Position numbers and translations under genes: made by a program
Notes under the pieces: generated by a model
Told to the model about the DNA's origin: nothing
Database searches by the model: none
What the model saw: only the letters and a program-made list of their open reading frames with translations
Shown here: one piece after another, positions 5,245 to 43,663 of the stretch
How the letters are laid out: every line of letters begins with the position of its first letter
Position numbering within the stretch: position 1 is the first letter of the stretch
Assembly: GCA_003153435.1 (NCBI GenBank)
Contig: PLYR01000124.1
Location: 1-48,063 of the forward strand
DNA: 48,063 bases
Direction: 5' to 3'
Source of the DNA: Bacteroidota bacterium
Lineage (GTDB): Bacteria > Bacteroidota > Bacteroidia > Palsa-965

Positions 5245-7158
5245 ATGACCCATTTAGATTCCCTTCTTTCCCAACAAATCAGTCTTGCTTTATCCTCTTT
5301 ATTTACTTTAGATATTAAGCCTGAATCCATTGTTTTTCAGAAGACTAATATTGAGTTCAAGGGCGATATCACCCTGGTTGTATTCCCTTATACCAAGGCT
5401 ACCAAAAAAAGCCCGGAAGAAACGGCCAAGCTGATTGGGGAATACCTCAAGAACTCGGTTCCAGATGTGGAAGACTATAATGTGGTCAAAGGATTCCTGA
5501 ATCTGGTTATTGCATCTCCTTTCTGGCTCGGTTTCCTGAAAGAAATCCTCCCTCTGGATGCATATGGGTTCAAGAAGAAAGGAAGTTCGGGGCGGACGAT
5601 CATGCTCGAATACTCATCCCCCAACACCAATAAACCTCTCCATTTAGGTCATATCCGGAACAATCTGTTAGGCTCATCGGTTGCTAGTATCTTAGAGGCA
5701 AACGGAAACAAGGTAATTCGGGCCAATCTGGTAAACGACCGGGGGGTGCATATCTGTAAGTCTATGCTTGCCTGGAAGTTATATGGAAATGGGGAGACTC
5801 CGGAATCAACTTCCATGAAAGGAGATCATCTTGTTGGCAAATATTATGTAGAATATGAAAAGCATTTTGCCCCTCAATGGAAAGCCAATTTAGCCGACTG
5901 GAACGCCGGTAAAACAGATAAACTGAATCCAAAAGAGCTGGAAAAGCTCCATACCCTCCTTAAAAACCTGGAAATAGCTTCGGAAAAGAAAAAGGACCGG
6001 GCCCAGGACGAACTAACTGACTTTGCAAAGGAATTGACGCCTTTGATGCAGCAGACTAAAGAAATGTTGCGGAACTGGGAAGCGGGGGATCCGGAAACAA
6101 TTGCGCTTTGGAAGAAGATGAACGATTGGGTTTACGCTGGTTTTGCACAAACATACAAGGCGCTTGGGGTTACCTTCGATAAGATGTACTATGAATCAGA
6201 GACCTATTTACTCGGAAAGAAGATCGTTGAAGAGGGTCTGACCAAAGGGGTATTTCTAAGGCGTGAAGATGGTTCAGTGTGGATTGATCTGACCCAGGAC
6301 GGATTGGATCTGAAGATCCTGCTGCGCTCCGACGGTACTTCAGTCTATATGACTCAGGACGTGGGTACCGCTGCGGAACGTTTCCGGGAGTTCCCGGAAC
6401 TAAGCCAATTGATCTATACCGTAGGGAATGAACAGGATTATCACTTCAAAGTCCTCTTTCTTATATTAAGCAAGCTAGGATATACTCAGGCCAAGAATTG
6501 CTACCACTTGTCCTATGGTATGGTCGACCTTCCGGAGGGGAAGATGAAGTCAAGGGAAGGGACCGTAGTAGATGCGGATGACCTGATGCAAGAGATGATC
6601 GACACAGCCAGGGCCATGACTCTGGAGCTGGGGAAAGTGGATGACTTCACCCCGGAGGAAGCAGAAAGCTTGTATCGTCAGATTGGGATGGCTGCACTTA
6701 AGTACTTTATATTAAAGGTTGACCCCCGGAAGCGGATGGTATTCGATCCCAAGGAGTCGATCGACTTCAATGGCAATACGGGTCCCTTTATACAATACAC
6801 CCATGCAAGGATTCAATCCCTCCTCCGGAATGCCAAAACCAAGGGATTGAATCATGAAGGGAATGATCTTGATCCTGGAAAGATTACCCTTCTGCCCGTG
6901 GAAAAAGATCTGATCAAGGCCATTTACAATTATCCGGATGTGATCCGCCAAGCTGGAGTGGAATATAACCCCGGGGTCATAGCCAACTATGTATTTGACC
7001 TGACTCAGCATTTCTCTACCTTTTATCAAAGCACTCCTATTCTTAAAGAGGAGAATCAGGAGCTCCTGATCTTCCGTCTGAAGCTCTCCCGGATGATCGC
7101 CCAAATTATCCGGAATTCTATGACTTTGCTCGGAATTGAAGTTCCGGAAAGGATGTAG
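5245..7158 (+). CDS. argS: Arginine--tRNA ligase
   Basis: Charges tRNA-Arg with arginine in the cytoplasm. It carries the class I signature HLGH at 133-136 inside YSSPNTNKPLHLGHIRNN, and a KMSKS-like loop KMKSREGT beginning at residue 433. The N-terminal additional domain precedes HLGH, and the C-terminal anticodon-binding helical domain ends at GIEVPERM. At 637 residues it is longer than many Bacteroidota ArgS proteins (about 590-600). The excess sits in a Lys/Glu-rich helical insert at about residues 208-270, between GKYYVEYEKHF and the MLRNWEAGDPE motif. It may be cotranscribed with the arginase gene. A tRNA-Arg gene lies further along at 11864. Confidence 0.95.
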   Translation: MTHLDSLLSQQISLALSSLFTLDIKPESIVFQKTNIEFKGDITLVVFPYTKATKKSPEETAKLIGEYLKNSVPDVEDYNVVKGFLNLVIASPFWLGFLKEILPLDAYGFKKKGSSGRTIMLEYSSPNTNKPLHLGHIRNNLLGSSVASILEANGNKVIRANLVNDRGVHICKSMLAWKLYGNGETPESTSMKGDHLVGKYYVEYEKHFAPQWKANLADWNAGKTDKLNPKELEKLHTLLKNLEIASEKKKDRAQDELTDFAKELTPLMQQTKEMLRNWEAGDPETIALWKKMNDWVYAGFAQTYKALGVTFDKMYYESETYLLGKKIVEEGLTKGVFLRREDGSVWIDLTQDGLDLKILLRSDGTSVYMTQDVGTAAERFREFPELSQLIYTVGNEQDYHFKVLFLILSKLGYTQAKNCYHLSYGMVDLPEGKMKSREGTVVDADDLMQEMIDTARAMTLELGKVDDFTPEEAESLYRQIGMAALKYFILKVDPRKRMVFDPKESIDFNGNTGPFIQYTHARIQSLLRNAKTKGLNHEGNDLDPGKITLLPVEKDLIKAIYNYPDVIRQAGVEYNPGVIANYVFDLTQHFSTFYQSTPILKEENQELLIFRLKLSRMIAQIIRNSMTLLGIEVPERM

Positions 7159-41799: not shown

Positions 41800-42471
41800 A
41801 TGTCAGGTAAAATTTCCATTCTTGCATCCGATCCTGATTTCCTGGTTCGAAAGGGAATTGAATCTTTTGTAAAAGAACAAGCGGAGTTTGTTCTGATTCC
41901 TTCAGCAAGTAATGTAAAGGAGATGATGCAATCACTCTCCCTCTTCCATCCGGATGTTCTTATTCTGGATTACAAACACTTTGAAGAAGGGGCAGCGTTG
42001 ATTAAGAAGGTTAGGATACTTTCCCCGTTAACGGGTATATTGATTATTTCCAATCCTGATTATCAGTCAGATATTACTCAGGCATTGAATCAAGGTGCTA
42101 CTAGTTTTCTGCTCCGTGAATGCGAAGAAGTGGAAATCCTTGAAGCCATACAAAATACCGCAAAGCACAAACGTTTTTTGTGCGGAAAGATCATTGAAAA
42201 GCTCACAAATGGTGATGCGTTATCTATGGGTCGTTCTGATACTAGTTGTGCGGGACTTGCCGTGACTGAGCGTGAAATTGAAATTATTAGACATGTTGCT
42301 GAAGGTTTAAGTAATAAGGAGATCGCGGAAAAACTATTCCTGAGCCCACATACGGTAAATACTCACCGGAAAAATATTATGAATAAGTTGCAGGTGAACA
42401 ACACTGCAGGTCTCGTCCTTTATGCAATCCGAAACGATATTCTTAGCCCCAATAAATTTTTGTTCTCCTGA
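41800..42471 (+). CDS. NarL/LuxR-type response regulator
   Basis: A 223-residue DNA-binding regulator. The receiver domain (about 5-125) keeps the phospho-acceptor D57 in VLILDYKHFEEG and the acidic pair D11/D13 (ASDPDF). The usual lysine after strand beta-5 is replaced by arginine (R106 in SFLLRECEE), and S84 sits at the Thr/Ser switch site. The C-terminal GerE helix-turn-helix starts at TEREIEIIRHVAEGLSNKEI and includes LFLSPHTVNTHRKNIMNKL. No histidine kinase is adjacent. The downstream lipoprotein gene starts in its stop codon. Confidence 0.88.
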   Translation: MSGKISILASDPDFLVRKGIESFVKEQAEFVLIPSASNVKEMMQSLSLFHPDVLILDYKHFEEGAALIKKVRILSPLTGILIISNPDYQSDITQALNQGATSFLLRECEEVEILEAIQNTAKHKRFLCGKIIEKLTNGDALSMGRSDTSCAGLAVTEREIEIIRHVAEGLSNKEIAEKLFLSPHTVNTHRKNIMNKLQVNNTAGLVLYAIRNDILSPNKFLFS

Positions 42472-42803
42472 TACGATCCATTTGCATTATTTTTTGCCTT
42501 TTTCTGTTTGCCTGCAGACACCTGCAGATGATACCCTCTGAAAATGAAGTTGCCATTGCGAAGACCAGGTGGAATGATGTCGTATTGGACTCATTGAAGA
42601 AGGGCTACAGTCTTTATACAGGGAAATGCGGTCGGTGCCATGAACTCTATAAACCCGGAGATTATCAGGAAGACGAATGGGAAGACATTCTCCCTAAAAT
42701 GTCAAGAAAGGCAAAGATCACAAAAGGGGAGGCGGAACTTATCCGCCGGTTCGTGATAACCAGGTCCATTTTTACAATCAGTAAAAGGAAACAAAAACAG
42801 TGA
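42471..42803 (+). CDS. Haem c-binding lipoprotein with probable ATA start
   Basis: A small monohaem protein. The first ATG in this frame (42528) gives 91 residues with a CGRCH haem motif and an ILPKM segment that can supply the axial Met, but no export signal, although haem c is attached outside the cytoplasm. Reading the same frame upstream to 42471 adds IRSICIIFCLFLFAC, a lipoprotein signal with a loose lipobox LFAC at residue 15. No ATG, GTG or TTG starts that extension. An ATA at 42471-42473 overlaps the regulator's TGA (TGATA, where TGATG would be usual), and a CTG lies one codon before. In this form C53, C56 and H57 bind haem and M77 is the axial ligand. The gene overlaps the kinase gene downstream (GTGA). 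Confidence 0.68.
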   Translation: MRSICIIFCLFLFACRHLQMIPSENEVAIAKTRWNDVVLDSLKKGYSLYTGKCGRCHELYKPGDYQEDEWEDILPKMSRKAKITKGEAELIRRFVITRSIFTISKRKQKQ

Positions 42804-43663
42804 AGCTCATCGCAGATAGCGGATCAACCAAGACAGACTGGCGTTTTATAAATCCAGCCGGGCAAATCTTTCCTTTTTCCACTCAAGGGTTAAACCCTTA
42901 TTTTATGAGCTCTTCAGATTTGAGCTTAGCATTGGAAGAAGTAAGTCTGCATTTTAAGAAACACTTTGATGGACTGTTGCCTGAAATTTATTTCTATGGG
43001 GCAGGTTGTGGGAGTGGTGAAAACCGGGATAAAATGGAATCATCGATCCTCAATGTTTTTCCTGGAACGTCTGTTTCAGTGGAAAGTGACATGCTGGGCG
43101 CAGCCCGCGCATTATGCGGAAAGGAAGCCGGAATTGTAGGTATACTGGGTACGGGGATGAATTCCTGTTATTATGATGGGGAAAAGATCTCCGAACAAAG
43201 AACCTCTTTGGGTTTTATTCTAGGAGATGAGGGAAGTGGGGCCTACATAGGCAAACAATTTTTAGCAGCATATCTCAACGATGAAATTCCTCCAGTTCTC
43301 CGAAATACGTTTGAACAGAGATTTAAACTCAGCAATTCAGAGATTCTGAAAAAGACCTATCAGGAACAATTCCCAAATCGTTTTTTGGCTTCCTTTAGCA
43401 AATTTATTTTTCAGAACATCAATGACTCTTACTGTTCGGATCTGGTTGCGAATGCCTTTCGTGCATTCTTCGATAAACATATTTGCAAATACCCTCAGTG
43501 GAAAGAACACACTCTTTCCTGTACTGGTTCGGTTGCATTTTGGTTCAGCAATATCCTCCGAAGAGTAGGAGAAGAAAAGGGAATTCAGTTAGGTAGGGTC
43601 GTTGAAACACCGATAGCGGCCTTGTGTTTGTACTATATGGATAAATCGGTTAATGAAGAATGA
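42800..43663 (+). CDS. BadF/BadG-family N-acetylglucosamine kinase-like protein
   Basis: A 287-residue sugar kinase of the ASKHA fold; relatives phosphorylate GlcNAc or MurNAc released by cell-wall recycling. Phosphate-1 motif ADSGSTKTDW is near 5-14, followed by VGILGTGMNSCYYDG (phosphate-2), LGFILGDEGSGAYIGKQFL and a late CTGSVAFWFSNIL adenosine-site segment. The start is GTG at 42800, overlapping the TGA of the haem c gene. Its last 14 bases overlap the end of the convergent T9SS gene. GlcNAc versus MurNAc specificity cannot be decided. Confidence 0.85.
   Translation: MKLIADSGSTKTDWRFINPAGQIFPFSTQGLNPYFMSSSDLSLALEEVSLHFKKHFDGLLPEIYFYGAGCGSGENRDKMESSILNVFPGTSVSVESDMLGAARALCGKEAGIVGILGTGMNSCYYDGEKISEQRTSLGFILGDEGSGAYIGKQFLAAYLNDEIPPVLRNTFEQRFKLSNSEILKKTYQEQFPNRFLASFSKFIFQNINDSYCSDLVANAFRAFFDKHICKYPQWKEHTLSCTGSVAFWFSNILRRVGEEKGIQLGRVVETPIAALCLYYMDKSVNEE

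Follow-up and report, generated by a model that had tools for sequence, protein, structure and literature searches.

Where does translation begin in a haem lipoprotein gene that offers no ATG, GTG or TTG codon ahead of its export signal? This question is raised by a locus in the draft genome of a Bacteroidota bacterium, within a stretch of 48,063 nucleotides (contig PLYR01000124.1 of assembly GCA_003153435.1) that is called the window here. A first-pass annotation of the window had reported an open frame with a lipobox and a haem motif, the missing start, and the sequence TGATA at the junction with the upstream gene, and all of these were found to be exact to the base. A non-canonical start, a base error and a loss of the start codon had been offered as explanations; this was the right set, with none of the three singled out.

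Results

A lipoprotein frame without a canonical start ahead of its lipobox

The features of the locus are collected in Table 1. The frame is opened by a TAA codon (42453 to 42455), closed by a TGA codon (42801 to 42803) and has no internal stop codons. Its lipobox ends in the Cys codon at 42513 to 42515, and the only start-like codons in frame before it are ATT, CTG and ATA. The first-pass annotation had named ATA and CTG, both of which stand, and had omitted the ATT at the upstream end of the frame. The TGA codon of the luxR-type gene (42469 to 42471) shares one base with the candidate ATA, so that no canonical start lies on the upstream stop as it would in a TGATG overlapping pair. The third base of this ATA is the A at 42473, and an Arg codon follows directly, which gives a lipoprotein-like N terminus. 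Counted from ATA, the signal peptide has 14 residues, which is short; the shortest found in a relative has 12. Taken as given, the sequence leaves the functional protein with no possible ATG, GTG or TTG start.

Table 1. Coordinates of the features at the cytochrome locus, as positions in the window
Feature	Position	Strand	Remarks
LuxR/NarL-type response regulator gene	41800..42471	+	Pfam GerE E = 9.7e-21, Response_reg E = 1.4e-9
Stop-to-stop reading frame of the monohaem c-type cytochrome lipoprotein	42456..42803	+	Matches in 34 of 99 genomes, own genome included
Candidate start ATT	42456..42458	+	19 codons ahead of the lipobox Cys
Candidate start CTG	42468..42470	+	15 codons ahead of the Cys; highest-scoring upstream context among the three candidates
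Candidate start ATA (favoured)	42471..42473	+	14 codons ahead of the Cys; lowest-scoring context among the three candidates
Lipoprotein signal peptide (I/M)RSICIIFCLFLFA-C with LFAC lipobox	42471..42515	+	From sequence, alignment and relatives
First canonical ATG	42528..42530	+	Within the mature protein; a start here would give a haem protein that lacks the export signal
CGRCH haem c attachment motif	42627..42641	+	Cys, Cys and His invariant in two alignments
BadF/NagK-type kinase gene	42800..43663	+	GTG start; 4-base overlap (GTGA) with the cytochrome stop

The earlier identification of the product as a haem c lipoprotein was supported by the conserved haem motif, the lipobox Cys and the hydrophobic stretch. 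C58, C61 and H62 of P0001 were invariant in 13 sequences and again in a second, partly overlapping set of 13, and the lipobox Cys was aligned in 11 of 12 relatives. M82 of P0001 (M77 in the second alignment) was present in at least 90% of the rows and may serve as the distal haem ligand. The alignment profile matched the dihaem cytochrome c 3u99 with E = 2.2e-7 (2.7e-5 with the second alignment). The Pfam family DHC (PF09626) scored 17.0 bits, which is under its curated cut-off of 22.2; the protein started at ATA had no Pfam match at E <= 0.01, a level at which 8 of the 13 aligned sequences match DHC. An AlphaFold model, which was made without haem, was confident, with a pLDDT of 86.2. With this haem-free model, Foldseek returned 18 matches at E <= 10 and none at E <= 0.001; the best VIA row was the quinohaemoprotein alcohol dehydrogenase 1kv9 (Z 6.6, rmsd 2.8, 75 aligned), and the next row was an unrelated protein with a Z of 5.5. 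The region of the haem motif can be aligned with 3u99, DHC proteins and other small cytochromes c, whereas the window protein differs from DHC and 3u99 in its single haem motif, its lipoprotein anchor and its Pfam score under the cut-off. The single haem motif, the nearly invariant Met downstream of it and the profile match to 3u99 identify the protein as a small c-type cytochrome, which most likely acts as a lipid-anchored electron carrier.

Conservation of the export extension and the gene body

The region ahead of the haem motif was compared at 38 loci, consisting of the window, 29 loci from a protein search of 99 genomes, the locus of a syntenic congener and seven loci from a scan of named genomes. 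The protein search gave 44 matches, of which 13 weaker or second matches were left out of the counts; one of those left out is a distant relative in the same genome (C39), in which ATG codons precede the Cys. The contigs of the named genomes yielded no loci when searched with the single protein and 12 when searched with an alignment of the congeners' proteins, five of them duplicating loci already in the set. A hydrophobic stretch ending in Cys preceded the haem motif in all 37 relatives; relatives without it had been named in the first-pass annotation as the finding that would count against its reading. The spacing from Cys to haem motif was 38 residues, as in the window, in 17 of the 37 and 35 to 81 residues in the other 20. 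These results indicate that the hydrophobic export extension is real. Each of the 37 relatives had at least one ATG, GTG or TTG codon 12 to 40 codons before the Cys. ATG was among them in 35; of the other two, L042 had only TTG and L015 only GTG. The window was the sole locus of the 38 without a canonical start, and its unusual start was kept in none of the 37 relatives.

The remainder of the gene is complete. There were 11 alignment columns in which at least 11 of 12 relatives agreed, and the window agreed with them in 10, departing only at the initiator Met, a column in which the M of one relative stands for TTG. Over 75 codons, differences from four relatives were most frequent at third codon positions (48 of 99, 44 of 99, 51 of 106 and 52 of 106). 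Such a complete gene body would be compatible with a recent loss of the start as well.

Unusual start codons and start contexts in this genome

The gene for initiation factor IF3, infC, has an unusual start codon in E. coli that is autoregulatory. In the genome studied here, infC (L057, G000:C128, match at 6551 to 6802, minus strand) had no ATG, GTG or TTG codon in the stretch running from the previous stop to the conserved part of IF3 and, provided that the frame is sound, would have to use ATT or ATA. The same lack was found in 13 of 25 relatives, and thus in 14 of the 26 genomes with a match; in these, ATA, ATC or ATT would have to serve. The remaining 12 of the 26 had a canonical codon somewhere in the stretch between stop and conserved sequence. 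The ribosomes of this genome therefore evidently accept such codons. Whereas the unusual start of infC recurs across relatives, that of the cytochrome gene was seen in a single genome. The infC pattern resembles the autoregulation by IF3 that is described for an ATT start in E. coli and an ATC start in Streptomyces, where a GTC start of sigR is also under IF3 control (PMC5472188).

The upstream context of each candidate was scored with a profile for which 121 ATG starts in the genome were used. Relative to these true starts, CTG ranked highest, at the 31.4th percentile, ATT and the ATG at 42528 both stood at the 16.5th, and ATA was lowest, at the 10.7th. Percentiles this low speak against any of these codons being a strong start; the profile picks out no single candidate but favours CTG over ATA. 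In Bacteroidetes, A at positions -3 and -6 is reported to help initiation in place of a Shine-Dalgarno sequence (PMC6847099), and reinitiation, at overlapping pairs included, is described as using no Shine-Dalgarno motifs (PMC6728339). In a count over 199,554 bases of this genome, six other one-base stop-start overlaps (four TAATG and two TGATG) were found among 174 ORFs taken as genes. A special initiator tRNA was considered as well. A tRNA scan of the genome gave 30 tRNA-like places, with an ARAGORN tRNA in 29 of the 30 loci and a CAT anticodon in three, initiator and elongator unsorted. The list seems to be missing entries, as it contains no tRNA for Asp, Phe or Val and no GAT-Ile tRNA, and it speaks neither for nor against a changed initiator.

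Assembly quality and the frequency of startless lipoprotein frames

The genome is a draft of 149 contigs with 2-N gaps and a contamination estimate of 2.05; the window has no ambiguous bases. One sampled stretch (L049, 5169 to 6626) holds a 485-residue lipoprotein-like ORF whose start region is interrupted by a 2-N gap in the assembly; further 2-N gaps occur in the sampled stretches L050, L051 and L053. A mechanical lipobox scan of 199,554 bases (the window plus 151,491 sampled bases) gave 16 ORFs with a canonical start and three without. These three were the cytochrome frame, one ORF on a 2-N gap and one of 87 amino acids that we judged to be spurious; some of the 16 look spurious too. Startless lipoprotein ORFs are thus rare in this sample, and an assembly defect accounts for the only other one of appreciable size.

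These data bear on the possibility that an assembly or consensus error, or a call made from a mixture of strains, affects base 42473 or a neighbouring stretch, and that the start is an ordinary one in the living cell. We regard this as unlikely, though it is a serious contender. The draft state and the contamination estimate speak for it, as do the single comparable ORF lying on a gap and the canonical starts of all 37 relatives, given that a change of one base would be enough. Conversely, the lack of ambiguous bases in the window counts against an error, and the syntenic relative described below has neither ATG nor overlap at this place.

Neighbouring genes and the history of the junction

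All 12 of the family's genomes, including that of the window, had a match to the LuxR-type gene. The kinase assignment rests on a Pfam match to PF01869 (E = 7.7e-6) of 26.0 bits, which is under the cut-off of 31.5. A kinase gene adjoined the relative of the cytochrome gene in two of the 29 relatives' loci from the protein search (L007 and L014) and also in L042. A small haem lipoprotein gene directly 5' of a BadF/NagK-type kinase gene was observed in three families of the class. In one congener (G002:C252, covered by L042 and L116), the same order was found as in the window: a metallo-beta-lactamase (RNase Z-like) gene, the luxR-type gene, the cytochrome gene and the BadF-type kinase gene. The cytochrome gene of this congener did not overlap luxR and had a TTG start 44 bases past the luxR stop, followed by the signal peptide MKKTYILLFISGMSAVLLWC-C. 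The distance from the luxR stop to the lipobox Cys was 41 bases in the window versus 104 in this relative.

Elsewhere in the family, no match to the cytochrome was found at eight of nine relatives' luxR loci (3.6 to 3.7 kb searched per locus), and in four of those eight (L035, L036, L038 and L040) luxR and the kinase gene were present without it. This indicates that the gene is dispensable at this place. The protein closest to that of the window came from another congener (53% identity), at a locus without these neighbours, and the history of the locus is therefore not simple. It had been pointed out that a change of one base would give an ordinary TGATG start. A simple ancestral TGATG at the junction is possible, but the syntenic start is a TTG 44 bases downstream without overlap, and a deletion that brought the signal peptide up against the luxR stop would be equally compatible with that comparison.

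A true loss of the start codon, by a point change or a deletion, would leave a gene that is silenced or becoming a pseudogene, which we also consider unlikely. The uniqueness of the window among 38 loci fits such a loss, as do the shortened distance between luxR stop and Cys, which is compatible with deletion of an older start, the weak contexts of the remaining candidates and the dispensability of the gene. The intact gene body counts against it, though a recent loss would leave no trace there. A cytoplasmic protein starting at the ATG at 42528, the first canonical start and the one that a gene caller would pick, is very improbable: haem c is attached outside the cytoplasm, the context of this codon is no better than those of the other candidates, and we rejected it in view of the export extension conserved in 37 of 37 relatives. 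The two frames are both open across 42456 to 42471, but a fusion of regulator, membrane helix and haem protein through a -1 frameshift late in luxR is scarcely credible: no slippery heptamer in the right phase was seen by eye, all 37 relatives have a start of their own, and a stop in the cytochrome frame of G002 between luxR and the start led us to reject the fusion.

Discussion

The reading that we tentatively prefer, at a little less than an even chance, is that the gene is functional and that its lipoprotein would be made at a low level by reinitiation on a non-canonical AUA (or CUG) codon. Ribosomes finishing the luxR-type gene would stop at its TGA and reinitiate in place, either at the AUA that overlaps this stop or at the CUG just upstream of that AUA, with the codon read by the initiator Met-tRNA. 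The product would begin with the short signal peptide MRSICIIFCLFLFAC, be exported and receive its lipid at the Cys, and haem would be attached outside the cytoplasm. The yield would be low and, as for infC, subject to limitation by IF3. We infer the codon used, the reinitiation, the low yield, the control by IF3, the export and the haem loading; the frame, the lipobox, the haem motif, their conservation, the missing canonical start and the tight overlaps between genes are observed. ATA is tentatively preferred to CTG as the start codon because of its one-base overlap with the luxR stop and the Met-Arg N terminus that would result, yet CTG has the better context.

In favour of reinitiation on a non-canonical codon, we count the extension in 37 of 37 relatives, the intact body, the overlaps on both sides, the genome's own infC, the published AUA precedent and the two relatives with only the weaker canonical starts (TTG in L042 and GTG in L015). 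Against it are its occurrence in one genome only, the poor contexts, the short signal peptide, the dispensability of the gene at this place and the draft state of the assembly.

The closest precedents come from S. aureus, in which an AUA start was identified by ribosome footprint for infC and measured for ccpN and for a lineage-specific citZ; the ccpN and citZ starts gave about 10% of the yield of AUG in poor medium, and in rich medium the ccpN start reached as much as 30% (PMC13009471). These are AUA-initiated protein genes, as is proposed here, and citZ is likewise restricted in its distribution, being specific to a lineage (PMC13009471). They differ from the cytochrome gene in two respects. 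The S. aureus starts come from ribosome profiling, with reporters for ccpN and citZ, while that of the cytochrome is proposed from the sequence, and an extended Shine-Dalgarno sequence is predicted at S. aureus infC and ccpN (PMC13009471), whereas no use of such a sequence is expected here. For CUG, a study cited by PMC11497404 gives a start yield of 0.86% of that of AUG. The reinitiating TGATG pairs of PMC6728339 likewise share a base between stop and start in packed, co-directed genes, but the start here is ATA rather than ATG.

A more speculative view, for which we see only a slim chance, is that the AUA overlapping the stop acts as a switch. In this lineage, in which Shine-Dalgarno pairing is not used, only ribosomes that have just completed the regulator would initiate there, so that the lipoprotein would be made in a fixed low proportion to the regulator and would rise when IF3 is short.

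In our literature search no AUA start was found to be reported for Bacteroidota; this does not prove that there is none. The start of the cytochrome gene would be a further example of a kind of non-canonical initiation that is already known, and its significance is modest unless sequencing reads confirm the A at 42473; if this base is an error, the lesson is limited to draft genomes. A gene caller restricted to ATG, GTG and TTG would place the start wrongly here and so assign an exported haem lipoprotein to the cytoplasm. Should the ATA prove genuine and in use, it would represent natural AUA initiation outside infC in Bacteroidota, without help from a Shine-Dalgarno sequence, and would suggest that a very weak start can be rescued by overlap with a stop codon.
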